A stretch of 64,000 bases of DNA. Source: Acholoe squamosa (lineage: Eukaryota; Annelida; Polychaeta; Phyllodocida; Polynoidae). Positions 2,623 through 52,071 of this stretch are shown piece by piece. The translations under genes and the position numbers were made by a program. The DNA is taken from the NCBI GenBank assembly GCA_949317995.1, contig OX439046.1, positions 36,988,002 through 37,052,001 on the forward strand, written 5' to 3'. Within the stretch, counting starts at the first letter, position 1. Every line of letters begins with the position of its first letter. The notes under the pieces were generated by a model, which saw only the letters and a list, made by a program, of their open reading frames with translations, made no database searches and was not told where the DNA came from.

Positions 2623-4254
2623 CCATAGGCCTAATGGACAGGGTGAGAATGAATTAGTTGATTTATGTCATTATGCGGACCGCGTAGGGTTGGTTGGTGA
2701 GGTGAGGGGGTATGGTGAGCATGACCAGTGTTTGACACAGAAACACCCAGCCTACTGCCCACCTACTGCTCATTCTGCATGCCATAAGTCATGTCACCCA
2801 GGCTGCTGTGTGTAAGCAGCCATCACTCTAACCCTACCAACCCTAACCCAACCTACACCCTCCACCAATAACTAATGCGCACTTCTTACAATTTACAATC
2901 AATCACATTGGATACGGTTAAAAGTCAAACACAGGAATTATCTAATTAAATATAGCTAAACCTAGCATGGAATAATATAGACCGAGGTAGACCGAGCAAT
3001 TATTTCCATATGGATTTTATCAGACACACCCAAAAGTGTAGACCGAGGCATAGCCATGTAGGCCTACTTCAGCCCTGCCAAGGGAAAACTGGAATTTCTG
3101 CTAGATATGGGATAACTATAAATGGAAAGTATTTTGTTATCCCCCCTCCCAACTATATTGATCAATTCTAGTTTCAAGCTACCCCCCCCCTTCTATGGTA
3201 ATTCAATTCACAACGACAGGATTCAATGATTAAAGCGGGGATTCAAGAAATGACAGTTTCTTATCTCTCTACCTCAATGTATCAGTACAGTATCATGCGA
3301 TAGGGGAGTCTACCTTGACACTCACGTTCATCTTTCTCTACCTATCTATGCATAAACACTTACTGTGACGGTTTATGATGATATATGCATCAGATGCTAT
3401 GAGCAGTCATATCAAGTAGAGATGTGAATCTATCACCAACCTGCTGACTGGCAGCACACCTCCATCAGAGTACCGAGCGATACAAATCACACAGCCACAC
3501 ACACAAGTCGCTGTCTCGTTACCTCTATCACCAGTCTCTCTCCACCTCTGATTTATTTGTCGGTGGTCTCATTGATTGGGAATATTGCACAGGACAGTGA
3601 CAAATAACAAGTCTAGGGAATTAACACTGGCTCCCTTGTCAACCAACCACTCCAATGATGCTGATATCAGGCAGTTAGGCACTATTGAGATGACAATATG
3701 ATTACTGACAGGTAGGCTACATGTCTAACATGACGCCCACCTCCGCTATTTCACCAACAGACAACGCTTCTATACTTGGCGCACATTCTTTGAAAATTTT
3801 CCAATCCAAAACTTGTGAAAAAGAGATATTTTGAGATGACTTGATACATAACATAAAGTGGAGTTTGAATCCTATTCGAATCATTTAAACCACACGATAA
3901 CATTGTGTTTTAACATGAGCATTATATCCAAGTCTGTTCTCTCTACCTTCAGTGTAGATAACTAGACTGATAACCATCTTTGCATCAAATTTCGGCACAA
4001 ATTTAAGGGCAAGGCATAGGGTATACCCAAACTGACAGACATTAAAGCTGTACAATAACATGTAGGGTAATACAATAATCCAATTGGCTTCCTGATAAGG
4101 TCATGAATAGTGATGGCAATATAATGCCAGGGGGATAATGTGGTATACTTTATTGATGCCATGTACAAGTAAGAACCCTTTGTGCCATGCAATATTTCCA
4201 TCATCAGCTTGTTTACACAGTGTGCTGCAGCGTAACTGTACCCAAGTCCCATTT
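2623..4254. other. non-coding stretch, no gene recognised
   Basis: It holds C-tracts near 3181 and general unique-looking sequence. A 122-codon minus-strand frame (3962-4330) runs into the next minisatellite, has no recognisable domain and is rejected. A TTAGGG-like phrase (CTAACCCTACCAACCCTAACCC, split by mismatches) near 2828 is too short to be telomeric. Confidence 0.55.
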
Positions 4255-6320: not shown

Positions 6321-7950
6321 AAACAAAAGCAGATAGGTCAGTTCGTACATGGATTATGGGACATTTTTCCTCGACATACATGTTCAACCTACCAAAACAG
6401 GGATTTTCTCTTACAAAGATAGGAGTGCTTTCTGACTTATCAAAATAGGAGACAATGGCTCAACATCATTGGCATTTAAGTTTATCTTTAGCTATCATGT
6501 AATTGAAGGCATCTGTAATGACCTTTTAATGAATATGAAGACTATAATTGCACAAACTGTTGCCGAAGCTAATATAGGCAGGTGGTATGAAACTTTATAG
6601 CCCCCCCCCACCCTATCGAACCCCATTCAGCATTATGATACAGGGGTCCTACTTACATGAATATTTGATGGCTGAGGCATAATTCCAACTTGCACAGTAA
6701 CCACATATTATAACTCATGCTAGTCAAGTAAAGCGATATGTTTGAGTCTGTTCTGGTGGTAACTACATGTATACTTGGGACCATTCACCATAACAACATC
6801 AAGTGTGCCGTTCAGCTGATTTAACTTGTGCATAATTAGAATCCAGATGAGTCCTATATAATATTCATTAGCAGAAAGAAAACAAATCAATATTTTGGCC
6901 TTCCCACCGTGACATCATCTAAAGACTTATAAATCATTAAGTGCCTCAACTTGACATGCTTTTCAATGAGGCATTGAATGGGAACCTATTATTTCTAAGT
7001 CAGAATATCATGCATGTCCTGTCTCAATGTGTACCAACCCTAATACTGACCCTATTCATTTTATCACATGGCTAATATTCGAACACTATGCTACCCTGAA
7101 ATGAATGTCAATGTCCACTCTGTAGAGTATTTTTTCACATCGTTCTTCACTTGCATGGTGATGAATCTGCTCTGGATCCCACTCGGCCTCTTGCGTCGTG
7201 TGATACAGCCCAGATCCGCCTGTTAAGATTTTACATCTAAAGAGCACGCCAGGAATTATTACTGAGGTTTAGTTTTAGTTGAGAGACGGTTCTAGGAACA
7301 TCCAGGGACGACATAGTTCTATCTTCAATAGTTCAATAAGCAAGTGTATACCATCAGTGACGTCATAAGTCAGAAGTGACGCAAAAATACCAAACATCTG
7401 CTGGGGACTGTTTGAGAGTAACTGCCAGTGTTTATTTACGAAGGAGGTAAATACAGTTCCTAGTAATGATTTGTCAACACTAGAGCTAGCCTCAATTATA
7501 CACTGGGAAACACCCCTATCTTTAGAATGACTGGTCAGGGAGAGAGCTAGTTATAGATTATGCAGACACCGCAAATATAGATGGCTGTCGTCTGATGCTT
7601 ATACAATGTATTTCGAATTCAGGATAACTAAAAGAATCATAAATACCCGGTACCTAGAGGCAGTAAACACATCACCAAGAAAAGACATGTATCAGACATC
7701 TTGAATCCCACCCCGGATCTCACTCCATCAATGGTTTATGCTGGGATGCTGGGCCTCTGGATGAGTTCGATGGGGGAGGGGCTCCCCATGAATTCCCATG
7801 GCACATGTCGATTTTAAAGGGAATATACGCACCCTTTGGTGGTTACCCCTAGTGTTTCAATAGGGAACTCCACCTTGATATTGAAGGAATATCACTGCAA
7901 TGCCTAGTATAAGGTATGTATATATAGAGAGAGGTGGATTATTAACACAG
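6321..7950. other. non-coding stretch, no gene recognised
   Basis: A perfect CRE palindrome TGACGTCA lies at 7358-7365 and a C-tract near 6600. No coding signal, tandem array or clear terminal inverted repeat was seen. Confidence 0.5.
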
Positions 7951-17410: not shown

Positions 17411-18118
17411 AGGTCACCCCGTGGTCCCATCCTGGTCCACCTTCACAGCTACCTACCCAAGTCACCCCTGTCCCCATCCTGGTCCACCTTCACAGCTACC
17501 TACCCAAGTCACCCCCTGTCCCCGTCCTGGTCTACCTTCACAACTACCTTTCCAAGTCACCCCCTGTCCTTATCCTGGTTCACCTTCACAACTACCTACC
17601 CAAGTCATCCCTGTCCCCATCTTGGTCCACCTTCACAGCAACCTACCCAAGTCACCCCTGTCCCCATCCTGGTCCACCTTCACAGCTACCTACCCAAGTC
17701 ACCCCTGTCCCCATCCTGGTCCACCTTCACAGCTACCTACCCAAGTCACCGCTGTCCCCATCCTGGTCCACCTTCACAACTACCTACCCAAGTCACCCCT
17801 GTCCCCATCCTGGTCCACCTTCACAGCTACCTACCCAAGTCACCCCTGTCCCCATCCTGGTCCACCTTCACAGCTACCTACCCACGTCACCCCTGTCCCC
17901 ATCCTAGTCCACCTTCACAGCTACCTACCCAAGTCACCCCCTGTCCCCATCCTGGTCCACCTCCACAGCTACCTACCCAAGTCACCCCTGTCCCCATCCT
18001 GGTCCACCTTCACAGCTACCTACCCAAGTCACCCCCTGTCCCCATCCTGGTCTACCTTCACAGCTACCTACCCAAGTCACCCCTGTCCCCATCCTGGTCC
18101 ACCTTCACAGCTACCTTC
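17411..18118. repeat. 47-bp minisatellite, about 15 copies
   Basis: The unit contains CCCCATCCTGGTCCACCTTC, ACAGCTACCTACCCAAG and TCACCCCTGT. It is 47 bp, or 48 bp where one extra C is present. Three 47-bp units give a 47-residue super-repeat in one frame, which explains the 241-codon open frame. It is not a gene. Confidence 0.95.
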
Positions 18119-18990: not shown

Positions 18991-19630
18991 CCTTCTGATC
19001 CTTGGGGAGTGTATAGAAGACGATGTAAACCCTGTTAGGTCGGCATGATGCCTTCTGATCCTTGGGGAGTGTATAGAAGACGATGTAAACCCTGTTAGGT
19101 CGGCATGATGCCTTCTGATCCTTGCGGAGTGTATAGAAGACGATGTAAACCCTGTTAGGTCGGCATGATGCCTTCTGATCCTTGCGGAGTGTATAGAAGA
19201 CGATGTAAACCCTGTTAGGTCGGCATGATGCCTTCTGATCCTTGCGGAGTGTATAGAAGACGATGTAAACCCTGTTAGGTCGGCATGATGCCTTCTGATC
19301 CTTGCGGAGTGTATAGAAGACGATGTAAACCCTGTTAGGTCGGCATGATGCCTTCTGATCCTTGCGGAGTGTATAGCAGACGATGTTAACCCTGTTAGGT
19401 CGGCATGATGCCTTCTGATCCTTGCGGAGTGTATAGAAGACGATGTAAACCCTGTTAGGTCGGCATGATGCCTTCTGATCCTTGCGGAGTGTATAGAAGA
19501 CGATGTAAACCCTGTTAGGTCGGCATGATGCCTTCTGATCCTTGCGGAGTGTATAGAAGACGATGTAAACCCTGTTAGGTCGGCATGATGCCTTCTGATC
19601 CTTGCGGAGTGTATAGAAGACGATGTAAAC
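18991..19630. repeat. 60-bp satellite-like array, 10.7 near-identical copies
   Basis: A 60-bp unit starting CCTTCTGATCCTTGCGGAGT and ending GTTAGGTCGGCATGATG repeats with exact phase. The first two units read CTTGGGG instead of CTTGCGG. The unit starting at about 19351 differs by two bases, in the part running into 19381-19390 (AGCAGACGATGTTAAC). Otherwise the copies look identical. This is far more uniform than any other array in the window. Confidence 0.97.
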
Positions 19631-28465: not shown

Positions 28466-29828
28466 AAACTGCAGGTGCTCACTTAACACACCAGGAGCCT
28501 CCAGGGGCATGCACTGTCTAGGAAATCAGAATTACTGCATACCAGCAAGCCTAGGAAATTAGAATTTCCAATCTGGCATTTGGTGACTTGTGCCATGGTC
28601 AGTGTAGGCTGTAGCTGTGTTGGGATGGGGTACTACAGGTCCGGTTCAGAGGTGGTGAGGACATGACATGACATGACCATTTTGTCGTGTATCATCTAGC
28701 TTTGACGGTGATGGTCCAAACAGTAATTCAATTTATCACTCTTTAGAAAAAAAGGCGTCTGGGCAATGTTGCCTACTACGGTGCCTAAAATTGTAGTTTC
28801 TGATAAATCTAGATGTCTCGACCCAGCCTAGAATGTTTGACTCTGGTCCAAGATTTTAATTGCTGACCTAAGGAATAGCAGAGTTTATAGGTCTACTATA
28901 GATTTAGACTATTTACAAACATCCCAGCTTAGTGTGTAATAAATCTAACTCCTACAGTAAAAACATATATCAAAACAAACCATGAGAGGGGAATGCCTCT
29001 GCAAATACAACACACCTCTCAGACAAATTATCCAGGCCCACAGGTAGGGAACAAGGCACAATTTGAGAGGACAAAGTGCGCAGGAAATTGCCAGAGGACA
29101 TCAGTCTACTATCTGATGGTTAAAAAAAGATGATTGGGACTTGACTTAGAAGCTTTGCACACAGCAACTAACATTGAGAAAGAAAAAAGAGACCGCCATA
29201 TGTAGATTACATGATGAAATTTACTAAAAAATTACACAGTTCATCCCCACACCCTTTTTCTGCTCTCCCACTGCTGTAATGGAAAAAGGCACTACTTGAT
29301 GAGGCAAAAAGTGTACTGCTTATACCCATTGAAGGATGAGGAAGTACAGAAAATTTAAGTTCCGAGTGAAATGACAACGGACATCTTTTTACCAACGCCC
29401 TCCCCCCCCCTCACACACAGAGGCATCAAGTACAATGTACACAGGATATGATTAAAATAGAAGTGTACGAAAGGTTTAGAAAAAAAACTGGACGAAAAAA
29501 CCCAGAATTTAGAAGTAGCCCACACTGAAAAAAAAAACACTGAAAAAACTTAGATGAATATATTGTGCAGGATGAACTCGTGATGCAAAGGAAAGTGGTC
29601 CAATTATTGGAACATATCAACAATCAGCACTGAGTCACTGAGCACATGTACCCCCCCCCCCCATCCCTCATGATTTTCTCCCCTTGGGACTGCCATCTTT
29701 ACTCCTCAATGGCCCGTTTACAATTACACCCCGAGGAGGGTGCAGGGTGCTGATAATGCCCAACTAGTAATGATGTTTGTATATGAAGCCTAGTCACCAT
29801 CTTGCCTGTTCGGCTGAAAATATGGGGA
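28466..29828. other. non-coding stretch, nothing recognised
   Basis: Homopolymer C-runs lie near 29401 and 29650, and A-runs near 29480 and 29530. No gene or paired termini seen. Confidence 0.5.
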
Positions 29829-30041
29829 GCAGCGTCTGCCTATACATGATTGTAATAGGGAGCAGTGTCTGCCTATACATGGCTATAATGGGAAGCAGTG
29901 TCTGCCTATACATGGCTGTAATGGGGAGCAGTGTCTGCCTATACATGATTGTAATGGGGAGCAGCGTCTGCCTATACATGGCTATAATGGGAAGCAGTGT
30001 CTGCCTATACATGGCTGTAATGGGAAGCAGTGTCTGCCTAT
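29829..30041. repeat. 33-bp minisatellite, block 1 (about 7 copies)
   Basis: The unit contains GTCTGCCTATACATGGCTGT followed by AATGGGAAGCAGT, 33 bp. It is separated by about 160 bp of unique sequence from the larger block at 30201. Confidence 0.95.
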
Positions 30042-30200
30042 TCCGAGGTAGCAGGTTGTCCCATGGGCGTGGCCATTGTTGGAGTTTGTTCCCAGGGCGT
30101 TCTACTGGTAACATCTATCAGATGGGTACAAGCTAGCCCCGAGAGGACCGCAGTGAACTTTTGGTGTCATTTCATTGGTTGATAATCAAACCAGCTCAGT

Positions 30201-31052
30201 CTGTATACATGATTGTAATGGGGATCAGTGTCTGCCTATGCATGGCTGTAATGGGAAACAGTGTCTGCCTATACATGATTGTATTAGGGAGCAGTGTCTG
30301 CCTATACATGGCTGTAATGGGAAGCAGTGTCTGCCTATACATGGCTGTAATGGGGAGCAGTGTCAGCCTATACATGGCTGTAATGGGAAGCAATGTAGGC
30401 CTATACATGATTGTAATAGGAAGCAGTGTCTGCCTATACATGGCTGTAATGGGAAGCAATGTAGGCCTATACATGATTGTAATGGGAAGCAGTGTTGCCC
30501 TATACATGGCTGTAATGAGAAGCAGTGTTGCCCTATACATGGCTGTAATGGGACGCAGTGTTGCCCTATACATGGCTGTAATGGGAAACAGTGTTGCCCT
30601 ATACATGGCTGTAATGAGAAGCAGTGTTGCCCTATACATAGCTGTAATGGGAAGCAGTGTTGTCCTATACATGGCTGTAATGGGAAGCAGTGTTGCCCTA
30701 TACATGGCTGTAATGAGAAGCAGTGTTGCCCTATACATGGCTGTAATGGGACGCAGTGTTGCCCTATACATGGCTGTAATGAGAAGCAGTGTTGCCCTAT
30801 ACATGGCTGTAATGGGATGCAGTGTTGCCCTATACATGGCTGTAATGGGAAGCAGTGTTGCCCTATACATGGCTGTAATGGGACGCAGTGTTGCCCTATA
30901 CATGGCTGTAATGAGAAGCAGTGTTGCCCTATACATGGCTGTAATGAGAAGCAGTGTTGCCCTATACATGACTGAAATGGGATGCAGTTTTGGCATATAC
31001 ATGACTGCAATGGGAGCAATATTGGCCTATGTCTGTAATGCGGAGCAGTATT
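30201..31052. repeat. 33-bp minisatellite, block 2 (about 25 copies)
   Basis: It uses the same unit as block 1, shifting along the array from GTGTCTGCCTATAC to GTGTTGCCCTATAC types. Since 33 is divisible by 3, four frames stay open for more than 230 codons on the two strands, each as an 11-residue repeat (for example HGCNGKQCCPI). These are artefacts. Confidence 0.95.
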
Positions 31053-31714: not shown

Positions 31715-32042
31715 GATTTTAAATGGAAATTGAAAGTGCAGTTTGGTGTGGCGTTAAAGACCAATAAGTGTAGACAGGGATTAACATCGTGCTCATAAAA
31801 CTTAAGACAGTCGTCATTACTACTGGAGCTGCAATCCTCTATTAAAAGGGGTTCTACTTTGAGGTTCTACTTGGACCTCTAGAGGTACGTATTCTTCACG
31901 TCAGGAATGCTGTTTAATACAGTGCATCTAGTGTCATCTCTTTTTTATACAAATAAATAATTAAAAGAAAGGGAAATATTCCCTAAAACACTCTTATAGT
32001 CCTATAGGCAATAAAAAGGAGACTTATAAATTTCAATTAAAG

Positions 32043-32086
32043 AACCAACATGTTTCGGCCGTCTTGCAGGCCTTCGTCAGGGTTGG
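32043..32086 (-). ncRNA. hammerhead-ribozyme-like motif
   Basis: Read on the minus strand: AACC (stem I), CTGACGA (the conserved CUGANGA core), one extra A, GGCC-loop-GGCC (stem II), GAAA, then C-AT-G closing a two-pair stem III, TT, and GGTT (stem I partner of AACC). The predicted cleavage site is after the T at 32047 (GUU). Minimal hammerheads of this type, with very short stem III, occur in Penelope-like retroelements and retrozymes. The extra A between CUGACGA and stem II departs from the consensus, and stem I is only four pairs, so activity is uncertain. No Penelope reverse transcriptase was found nearby. Confidence 0.5.
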
Positions 32087-32572
32087 ATTTATTATCAATA
32101 AGTAAGCTCAGGTATACATGGGAGTCATTTTTATCCTTTGCATAATTACCATAGCAACCTTGGGTAAATAGAATAATCGCTATATAAACAGCTCCTTACA
32201 ACCTTGCCCTTGATAGTTGACCCAATTTGAGAGTCATTTGTGAGTTAACATATTACTGAGTAGGGTACATTATATTCTTAAAAAAAAACCCAACTTTTTG
32301 AGGTTTGGCCCATGGGCTAAATTGATATAACAATGTACAGGTGAATAGATAACATGAGAACTAACAACAACAATAGCAAGGTATAGTGTTCCTGGAGAAT
32401 ATATCATATTTAGGAACAAATGTCAATAGTTCATTTTTGGAACAAAGTTCATCCTGTCTTCACGTGACACTACTGGTTTTTCGGGTGAGAATAATTCATT
32501 TGGGGATTCCAAGAAGGAGAAGTCTACTGGTGGGAATTCCTCACTAGGAGTGGGAATGTCAACCCAAAGTTG

Positions 32573-32963
32573 TGGACAATGTGGCCAAACAGGGTGGACG
32601 ATGTGGCAAATGTTTTTTAAGGCTATTTACTATAAGAATATGGGTCTCCCAAGTGTTCTATAATGAACCCATTTACTTACCCTGGCATTTTTCTTTTTTC
32701 TCTGGCCCACAAGCATGCATTTTATTACCCATATTCTACCAAAATCAAATCCAAATTGGTGGACCAATGTCTGTGGATGATGTGGTCAAAAGACTATGTG
32801 GACAATGGACAATGTGGTCAACGTTTGAAAAGATGTGAATTGGTGAAAATCTGCTGCTAAAATGGCCACATCATCATTTTTTTTCAAATTTTCCACATGG
32901 TCAACTTTTGGCCACATCATCCAGAAAATTGGCCACATCGTCCTTGGTTTGGCCACATGGTCC
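32573..32963. mobile_element. roughly 390-bp TIR element with GATGTGGCCAA motif arrays
   Basis: The left terminus GGACAATGTGGCCAAAC and the reverse of the right terminus, GGACCATGTGGCCAAACC, match. A second inverted pair, GGACGATGTGGC, follows at each end. Additional GATGTGGTCAA/TTGGCCACATC motifs lie inside (32777-32825 and 32897-32945). No transposase. The architecture matches the elements at 19808 and 24375. Confidence 0.7.
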
Positions 32964-34515
32964 AGTGTTATTGTCATTTGAAGGAGTGTCGTCATTGTTA
33001 TTATAGCCCACAGGTGGTTGGGTCATTCCAAACTGGAAAAGGGGTGGGTAGTTTGACTGCAAATGGGTGTATTTCTCCTATATTCTTGACCATAGTGGGT
33101 TTAGTGTGTTTTTTTTTGTGTGTGTGTGTGGTTTTTTTGCGTCATTAACAGCACTGCACATCTTATTAGTCCTGTGGAAGAGATTAAGTTTACCAGGAAT
33201 TTCCCATAAATTTGACACGTGGTGGTGAGTCATTTTTGGGTTTAACTGTGATAACAGCCCCTTATGATAAATAATTACTATACTACGTAGAATGTAGTCG
33301 GATGTCAGTCAGCAATAGTGCCTGATCACTTACCTATTGCCAGGGTTATACTTATTACCTTGTAATCATAGCTGACTGAACAGAAACTAAAACATTTCTC
33401 AATCAATAAAGATGTAAGGTGTGAAACAGCATCATCTTTTTGTGTCGACATGGTTACTACAGGGGCTGCGGGGGGATTTTTCGCCCCAATTCTTGTATTT
33501 ACCTCCATAGCTCCCTCTTCACACAGTGTGGTAGTGGTGGGGGCAGCTAGTGTTGGTGCATTAATTTATGCTAGAGACGTACAAAGCTGGAGCCTTCACA
33601 CTGTCCTCAGATGGGTTAACTTGAGGGTGACATACTACGTGACAAGTCTCAGACAAACTGAATGTCCTCCAACATGCCCTGTTCAATAGATCCTCACTTG
33701 TCCAAGCTACCTTTAGATCTCTACCTTACTTGTCCCTTGAAATAAAGCACGCGAATCCTCAGGTGGTATGTTTACCTTCATCTACTTTTGTCCAGGTCAA
33801 TAGTCGAGTCTAGAACAGTACCCGGTACACACCGATCATTCTATTTGATTGCAGGTAAACAACACCTGGACCACGTAGTGTAATACCTTAATATTCTGTA
33901 TAGCTTATTCCACACTTCCTCTTCTGCTGCCATTTCCGCATTACTTCCTGATTCTTATCTATATATATCGGCAGTGCTTAGGCAATTTTCACCCTGAGCT
34001 GACTTTCCTATTCAGCCCTCCCTACCCTCACTCCTCTTCCCTTAGCTTCCATTCCTCTTTCCTTAGCTTCCTACCCCTTATCTCTTCTATTGCACCTCCC
34101 TCATCATCTTACATTGCCCTAAGTCTGCCTGCCTCCTTCTGCATTCTCAGCTTCTAAGGGAGATGAGAATGCAGATACTAGTTGAGTACCTACAGCAGGT
34201 AAATGTGTAATGAAAATGGTCCTTATATATTACCTGCAGGCATGGTGGAGCAAAACGTACATCCAGGCTCACATGTATCATCCCTTAAGAGTACTTTATA
34301 GGTATGGCCATTTACCCTTAAGCATGCAGGTATTCCAGGTGGTGGTTCTTGACTATCAAATCAGTAAGTTCGTCTCTACTGTGCTAACATGGGTTCATTC
34401 AGTAGCCACAAGTTTGGTACACATCTCCCTGGAATGGTTGACTGGTACCTACTGGCCGTCCACTACCGTAACGACAAGCACCGAACACCAGCCACGGTGT
34501 CTCTGTGGGCTCGTA
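32964..34515. other. non-coding stretch, nothing recognised
   Basis: A T/G-rich tract lies near 33100-33140 and a pyrimidine-rich tract at 33900-34150. A 102-codon frame (34210-34518) has no domain. Confidence 0.5.
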
Positions 34516-51205: not shown

Positions 51206-52071
51206 CACTTAGTACCCTTCTTAATTAATCGTAACTCTGATGTGGTTGCTCTTCAGAGCAGTTAGCAGCATGATCTAGATAAAGTTGTAGCCTGGTGTGA
51301 CTCTAACTGCCTTACCATAAATGTCAGTAAATCTAAATACATGTTGATCTCTAAGGATGATGATGCTATTGTACTGTCTATAAAAGGTGATCTTGTGGAA
51401 TATACTTCTCATTATAAATATCTAGGCATAGTTCTGGATGATGCCTTGTCATTTGAACAGTATGCTGCACACATGAAAAAAATCAATAAGACATAAAATT
51501 TGGATGCTAGCTGGTACAAGATATTGTATAGACGAAGCCACAGCGCTCACTATTATGAGAACTATGATAATGCCTTATATTGACTATGGCTTAGTATTCT
51601 CCACAGGCTGGAAGGTTAGCCTCTACAAAAAGCTTCAAGTCCTGTATAACTCTGGTATCCGGGTCTGCATGAAAATACATGACCCAAGGCAAATGCATGT
51701 CAAAGAACTTTATATAAATGCAAAAATGTTACTGGTACACCTAAGGCACATATTTTTACAACTGACTATGTGTCACAGGTTAGCGTTCAGTGGCCAGGCA
51801 CTGGTCTTGCCCTCTGTGGGAACCCGTAGTTTTGATACCCCCCCGTATACTGCAGACTTGTCCCAAATCCACTACTTTAATAAATGATCCAGTATACCAG
51901 GCTCATTCCCAATGGAATGCTCTGGACCCTGATTTACGCTGGATAGTCCCAAATGAGGACTTTAAGACAAAGATAAAAAAGAAACTCACTGCCTTTTTCT
52001 ATCAACATTGGTCCCCTGATACCCCCTCACTCCTCTATGAGGGCAGAAGCATACTAACCTTTGTGACCTGA
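51206..52071 (+). pseudogene. non-LTR retrotransposon reverse transcriptase, C-terminal part, disrupted
   Basis: The reading begins upstream of SS-stop-QHDLDKVVAWCDSN and continues LTINVSKSKYMLIS...YKYLGIVLDDALSFEQY. This is the region after the catalytic YADD box of LINE reverse transcriptases (W-C--N-L-IN--K-----, then Y-LG). It continues as PYIDYGLVFSTG and ends with a WNALDPDLR-type motif. The frame is broken by an in-frame TAG at 51263, a TAA at 51494 followed by a one-base shift into the frame starting at 51504, and another shift near 51880. The endonuclease and the first part of the RT are absent (5' truncation). The clade (CR1/Jockey-like or other) cannot be fixed from this part. It is inactive. 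Confidence 0.85.

Follow-up and report, generated by a model that had tools for sequence, protein, structure and literature searches.

We found a motif that is very probably a minimal type I hammerhead of a Penelope-like retrotransposon, located in a decayed, 5′-truncated copy of that element and predicted to be a ribozyme. It lies on the minus strand at positions 32084-32043 of the 64-kb stretch of Acholoe squamosa DNA that was analysed (hereafter, the window). Read directly, the motif consists of AACC, CTGACGA, an extra A, GGCC-TGCAAGAC-GGCC, GAAA, CATG, TT and GGTT, in this order. AACC and GGTT form stem I, the two GGCC segments form stem II with TGCAAGAC as its loop, stem III is a palindromic A-CATG-U, and the triplet is GUU, with a predicted cut after position 32047. 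All core letters of a type I hammerhead are in place (C3 U4 G5 A6 N7 G8 A9, G12 A13 A14, A15.1-U16.1 and H17), and every element named by the first-pass annotation, which had claimed a hammerhead-like motif on this strand, is present.

The window motif is real. A strict descriptor (stem I of at least 4 Watson-Crick pairs, CTGANGA, 0-1 inserted base, stem II of at least 4 Watson-Crick pairs, GAAA, and UH), composed after the motif had been seen, has a single match in the window, which is the motif. On simulated DNA drawn from the window's first-order Markov make-up, the descriptor gave 1 exact match in 39.5 million strand-bases, which corresponds to ~0.003 per 64 kb by chance; with a less strict text pattern, the window has 1 match where 0.03 are expected. 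A rate of 0.003 per window still means that a few matches are expected in thousands of 64-kb windows, and Rfam lists no hammerhead in the window, either at the gathering threshold or at E<=10. Nevertheless, the idea of a chance resemblance, in which a hairpin in non-coding DNA happens to have hammerhead-like letters, is extremely improbable: the motif belongs to a repeat family that is tied to a Penelope-like element (PLE) and is conserved above its neighbours, and it has covarying relatives. The free-spacing pattern for these relatives, CTGANGAN{8,30}CGAAACGTYG, matches 867 places in the genome, versus 15 for the reversed pattern.

The silence of Rfam on the window says little, because Rfam is equally silent on phage contigs that bear hammerheads with an extra base. 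At the gathering threshold, it lists no hammerhead in nine phage contigs, of which seven carry an extra-A hammerhead, and nothing at the matched places of eight phage contigs with another extra base. The Rfam type III model aligns one extra-A phage hammerhead below the gathering score, and places that A as an insertion. The many extra-A motifs of this genome (below) suggest that search models without an inserted base may miss the class.

A covariance search with type I models had been proposed as a check. For our model R2, derived from phage type I hammerheads (18 of 19 matches obtained without imposing GGCC, 1 omitted), the motif is the top match in the window, yet at no better than E 0.13 and 13.7 bits; the best control match in 377 kb had 11.9 bits. 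R2 is fairer than model R1, which is based on 37 type I sequences out of 40 non-redundant ones (3 omitted by hand) and is circular for stem II because its source pattern imposed GGCC. R1 scores the window match at 22.7 bits, and locus L006, which failed the stem check, at 21.4. The rows of alignment A1 were chosen for pairing, so its pair counts give no new proof. Viral, prokaryotic and plasmid collections contain no animal genomes and served only as controls. Public viral collections had 15 matches (13 + 2 contigs), none with both stems and with at most 2 pairs in stem I; among prokaryotic genomes, 51 stretches matched, none with both stems of at least 4 pairs; the plasmid collection had no match to the motif.

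The relatives of the motif indicate what it belongs to. In a DNA search of the species' own 1.48-Gb genome (63 contigs), 40 scored places, window included, match the window's 251-nt surroundings; this is a lower bound, as only the best candidates were scored. The other 39 places were examined with ~1 kb on either side. Exact full motifs number 16 among the genome copies, versus 0 in the reversed control. At one locus, L243, two motif copies occur 4.4 kb apart in the same orientation, one in each of two 302-bp direct repeats (2920-3221 and 7293-7593) that are 98.3% identical. These repeats flank a 779-aa ORF containing the domains RVT_1 (PF00078, E 5.4e-11) and GIY-YIG (PF01541, E 8.6e-6). Locus L250 has both reverse transcriptase (RT) and GIY-YIG domains within 583 aa, and all these matches in L243 and L250 are above the Pfam gathering scores. 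With an ORF for RT and GIY-YIG between motif-bearing direct repeats, L243 is a PLE with pseudo-LTRs (pLTRs). The PLE traits found are pLTR direct repeats with a hammerhead in each, 5′-truncated copies and target-site duplications.

The earlier suggestion of a Penelope-type hammerhead with a tiny stem III thus finds support in relatives within the same genome, which occupy both pLTRs of an element with RT and GIY-YIG, and the window copy aligns to L243. The motif belongs to a known kind, the PLE minimal hammerheads, with which it shares the type I order, a vestigial helix III, a place in PLE pLTRs and dispersal in thousands of copies over animal genomes (PMC7761336; published work is cited here from extracts).

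Both PLE copies also have a second ORF (L243:6178-7107, plus strand, 310 aa; L250:3049-3906, minus strand, 286 aa), which is in a different frame from the RT/GIY-YIG ORF, overlaps the latter's end and encodes C2H2 zinc fingers (PF00096, E 8.7e-6 in L243 and 4e-6 in L250). In a literature search on PLE ORFs with C2H2 fingers, nothing was evident in the titles listed. Near one PLE copy is a 763-aa ORF with a NADAR domain (L246:3395-5683, minus strand, E 1.3e-23).

We read the window copy as a decayed, 5′-truncated PLE remnant at about 33265-31954 (minus strand) that appears to have lost its RT and endonuclease. Its alignment to L243 covers 33265-32963 and 32566-31961 on the minus strand, i.e., the second ORF through the pLTR. 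The pLTR (31954..32243, minus strand) has 90.5% identity to L243 2935-3228, in an alignment that stops at 31954; the window row corresponds to reference positions 7-309. Two remnants of the second ORF remain on the minus strand, namely its end at 32426..32566 (tblastn, 89% aa identity to L243 over 47 aa) and an inner part at 32963..33265 (blastn and tblastn; at 33261-33007, 85 aa with 55% aa identity). The ~400 nt between them (32567..32962) are extra, in that they are unaligned to L243, and contain ATGTGGCC/GGCCACAT as direct and inverted repeats; these short repeats cluster at 32567-32965, inside the PLE remnant. Neither Pfam (run on 20 of 51 minus-strand ORFs surrounding the motif and on 10 ORFs elsewhere) nor the L243 alignment showed RT or GIY-YIG close to the motif. 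The Penelope RT and GIY-YIG that were to be sought in the flanks are present in the relatives L243 and L250.

Type I hammerheads are common to PLEs and retrozymes (PMC7229834), and short, stand-alone copies of ~130 nt exist in the family. The motif might then belong to a retrozyme, that is, a non-autonomous tandem repeat of 170-400 nt with type I hammerheads and a circular RNA. We consider this very unlikely. No tandem repeats of 170-400 nt without coding capacity were found, no tandem array contains the motif in the window, and the tandem second copy that the first-pass annotation had proposed to look for was not found in the window. Elsewhere, 38 of 39 loci of ~2.1 kb have a single match, and larger stretches have one or two. 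The short copies differ in subfamily and, bar one duplicated pair, have unrelated flanks, as expected of truncated PLEs, and the window copy keeps remnants of a PLE ORF.

Judging from the aligned copies, the core, the extra A and the palindrome are largely conserved in the family. The reference for this comparison was the L243 pLTR, itself one copy, with 40 rows (39 copies and the window) of uneven coverage. The 42-nt motif differs from L243 by 5.5%, a figure partly favoured by the search, whose query contained the motif, versus 20.3% for the 67 nt upstream and 16.1% and 17.3% for the next two ~42-nt stretches downstream. Genome copies that failed to conserve the core would have spoken against the motif; instead, it differs far less than the 16-20% of the neighbouring repeat. 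In the aligned rows, A9 (38/38), A13, A14 and A15.1 (39/39 each), U16.1 (40/40) and H17 (40/40) are invariant. Other core letters vary, namely C3 (31/33), U4 (30/34), G5 (31/34), A6 (34/35), G8 (30/35) and G12 (36/39), and the variation from C3 to G8 is partly explained by truncated copies that begin inside the core. Position 17 is C in 25 rows, T in 14 and A in 1, so the family triplet is mostly GUC. Since C17-G1.1 forms a CpG, T at this position, including that of the window's GUU, is plausibly the product of CpG decay. With GUU instead of GUC, the window copy is probably a slow or dead relic.

The extra A had been described as the one departure from the hammerhead core. At canonical spacing, stem II directly follows A9, but here one A is inserted. 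Sequence comparison indicates that this A is a regular feature of the family and no flaw: of 38 aligned family rows, 36 have A at this place, 1 has G and 1 has T. Beyond the family, we listed the first 100 of the 867 places, which have 80 distinct motifs. Among these 100, the letter after CTGANGA is A in 98 motifs (78 of the 80 distinct), a possible difference from the published PLE minimal hammerheads. The same distinct motifs also support stem II at a spacing of one, with Watson-Crick pairing of the first three pairs in 60/80 and of the first four in 44/80, versus 0/80 at a spacing of zero and 0/80 at a spacing of two. In total, 279 of 320 stem II pair cells are formed in the 80 distinct motifs listed, compared with a mean of 167 and at most 193 after shuffling, although C11.1 is fixed by the pattern and the sequences are relatives, both of which inflate such counts. 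A second pattern, CTGANGAN{8,30}CGAAACNNGTYGG, had 27 matches versus 6 in the control, 25 of them with CTGANGAA, and its relatives include stem II versions GGTT/AACC and GGTC/GACC. In five examples compared, the changes in stem I, in stem II and in the palindrome (CATG or CG) are compatible with one another. Covariation supports the three-helix order of type I, for stem II over 80 motifs and for stems I and III over five examples, a small basis. In the same genome, minimal hammerhead-like motifs from other families, with the palindrome CG, run into the hundreds.

Inserted bases also occur in phage hammerheads. The inserted-A pattern was found in 9 phage contigs with 7 distinct sequences, of which 5/7 have full type III stems I and III and 2/7 do not. 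For other inserted bases, among the matches listed (120 stretches), 113/122 distinct sequences with T, 7/7 with G and 1/1 with C have type I or III stems according to a scripted check. In these IMG/VR phage contigs (L010-L129), the base inserted before stem II is mostly U, and many sequences are of type I or III. Some phages have several per contig, for example six model matches in L033, and a twister-sister ribozyme occurs near two hammerheads in L031 (4894-4973). Published alignments reportedly have at most one or two nucleotides inserted at the site of the extra A (PMC10085705). We found no description of an extra A in PLE hammerheads in the literature searched, which did not extend to Cervera and de la Pena 2014 or Lunse et al. 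2017, and absence from the literature is not implied.

The two-pair stem III hairpin initially proposed would leave a 2-nt loop; stem III is better read as a single A15.1-U16.1 pair around CATG, a palindrome whose full pairing requires two copies. In this respect, the window motif is like hammerheads that cleave as dimers, a behaviour that reportedly figures in the title of Lunse et al. 2017. The predicted dimer fold of the window copy is a double hammerhead, but that of the GUC copy of L243 is not. In dimer-energy calculations, only 4 of 256 tetraloops, CATG included, give a double hammerhead as the dimer minimum, while 46/256 gain at least as much energy as CATG. The dimer-energy argument is weak, because those 46 tetraloops match the gain of CATG and the L243 form folds otherwise. 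A distal extension of helix I (ATAAAT/ATTTAT) pairs no better than shuffled flanks (P 0.19) and was rejected.

Cleavage by amphibian hammerheads, including one with a one-pair helix III and a palindromic loop, is weak in monomers and much more effective in dimers (PMC7229834). The newt and axolotl satellite hammerheads (HHR_Amex1) share with our motif a one-pair helix III capped by a palindromic tetraloop, and their dimers cleave better; loop I-loop II contacts are kept there, and, unlike them, the window motif is in no tandem satellite (PMC7229834). A proper helix III is usually missing from PLE hammerheads (PMC7761336).

The hairpin could instead be kept for some other job in the PLE, such as a binding site for RT or another protein, an RT stop or a 3′ processing signal, and no longer cleave, in which case the extra A would mark lost catalysis. 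Copies often begin at the 5′ edge of the hairpin, the minimum-energy fold of the window motif as a monomer is not a hammerhead, and the 80 distinct motifs listed offer no version with canonical spacing for comparison. We nonetheless judge this reading to be unlikely, though clearly less so than a retrozyme. Catalytic core letters outside the hairpin stem are kept (A9, A13, A14, A15.1, U16.1 and H at 17), in 5/7 distinct extra-A phage sequences stems I and III of type III are complete, and most phage sequences with another inserted base, among the matches listed, have type I or III stems. Moreover, a functional, protein-assisted PLE hammerhead has been reported in PAc, a Poseidon PLE of Anolis carolinensis (PMC11167929). 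The Anolis hammerhead is reported not to cleave without the element's protein, and insertion in vitro is still possible with hammerhead mutants; the single mutants C3G and G8C lose cleavage, which partly returns in the double mutant (PMC11167929).

If the motif is a PLE ribozyme, as we prefer, the known biochemistry of the class suggests how it might act. In transcripts of tandem elements, two motif copies would pair via the palindrome to form a double hammerhead, perhaps with assistance from the protein of the element. Each paired motif would cut the other after position 17, by which multimeric PLE RNA would be trimmed; the predicted folds lend this step weak support. Reverse transcription would start internally, ~90 nt downstream, and run up through the ribozyme.

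PAc is a close comparison. Its cut lies 26 nt into the ORF and its RT start 111-118 nt into the ORF (PMC11167929). As here, its ORF has RT and GIY-YIG, and its pLTR bears a hammerhead with an internal RT start further downstream, at a spacing of 85-92 nt (computed from the PAc numbers) versus 83-98 nt from the predicted cut to the end of most rows in our family. Its insertion sites are AT-rich (PMC11167929), and the duplications in our family also appear AT-rich by eye. There are two differences. In our PLE, the first frame seems to start downstream of the pLTR (the ATG is inferred at L243 3336, with no Pfam match) rather than inside the hammerhead, and the second ORF with C2H2 fingers follows.

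The ends of the copies are not distributed evenly. Among the 5′ starts of 39 copies, 22 lie within -17..+10 of the first base of the ribozyme (21 within -9..+10), 15 reach at least 78 nt upstream, and 2 are at +20 and +32. None of the 39 starts between -70 and -18, though the search should have shown such copies; shorter copies are under-sampled, since the search favours copies that contain the ribozyme. Of the 22 copies at the hot spot, L236 seems by eye to keep upstream letters, and L230 and L233 are one duplicated locus; 20 are independent. Upstream of their starts, the 22 copies show no relation to the pLTR or to one another, except for the duplicated pair and two 23-25-nt matches (E 0.005). 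Target-site duplications of 10-17 bp are present in 9 independent truncated copies, and few or no shuffles equal them. Relative to the first base of the ribozyme, the end of the duplication falls at -3..+7 in 8 of these copies and at -21 in the ninth, L226. No clear duplication is seen in 12/22 truncated copies, and a long copy, L216, also reaches a duplication of 10 bp, in a T-rich stretch. At the 3′ end, 37 of 40 rows stop at reference positions 295-310, i.e., 83-98 nt downstream of the predicted cut, a range bounded by the reference itself, which stops at 310 (98 nt past the cut), such that longer ends could not show.

The hot spot does not coincide with the predicted cut, 38 nt deeper in the motif. 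It might arise because a fragment of the RNA is protected or because RT stops where the ribozyme is folded, although both ideas are conjecture. We tentatively raise the possibility, without favouring it, that the hammerhead fold, besides cutting, defines where the copied RNA begins at its 5′ end. The commonest template would then be a piece of ~130 nt that runs from the ribozyme edge as far as the internal RT start and is protected by the protein of the element or by the (possibly dimeric) fold, and the A between A9 and stem II would be a hallmark of a protein-coupled hammerhead class and not just a flaw that can be tolerated. If true, such a template-boundary role would explain why 22/39 copies, from several subfamilies, start at the ribozyme edge. 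A description of a truncation hot spot at a PLE hammerhead was not found in the literature searched, which does not imply that there is none. PLE hammerheads themselves are an already known kind; what merits attention is that the extra A is regular and that truncation has a hot spot. Hundreds of motifs, with an extra A in nearly all of those listed, a covarying stem II and a hot spot for 5′ ends, provide a testable hypothesis on the role of the ribozyme in retrotransposition.

Elsewhere in the window, positions 51266-51884 (plus strand) have a weak RVT_1 match (E 0.019, at 51266-51493) that is perhaps a decayed LINE fragment. Long minisatellites occur at 18991-19630, 17413-18116 and 29822-31018, one of which has a 60-bp unit in 10.7 copies with 99% matches.
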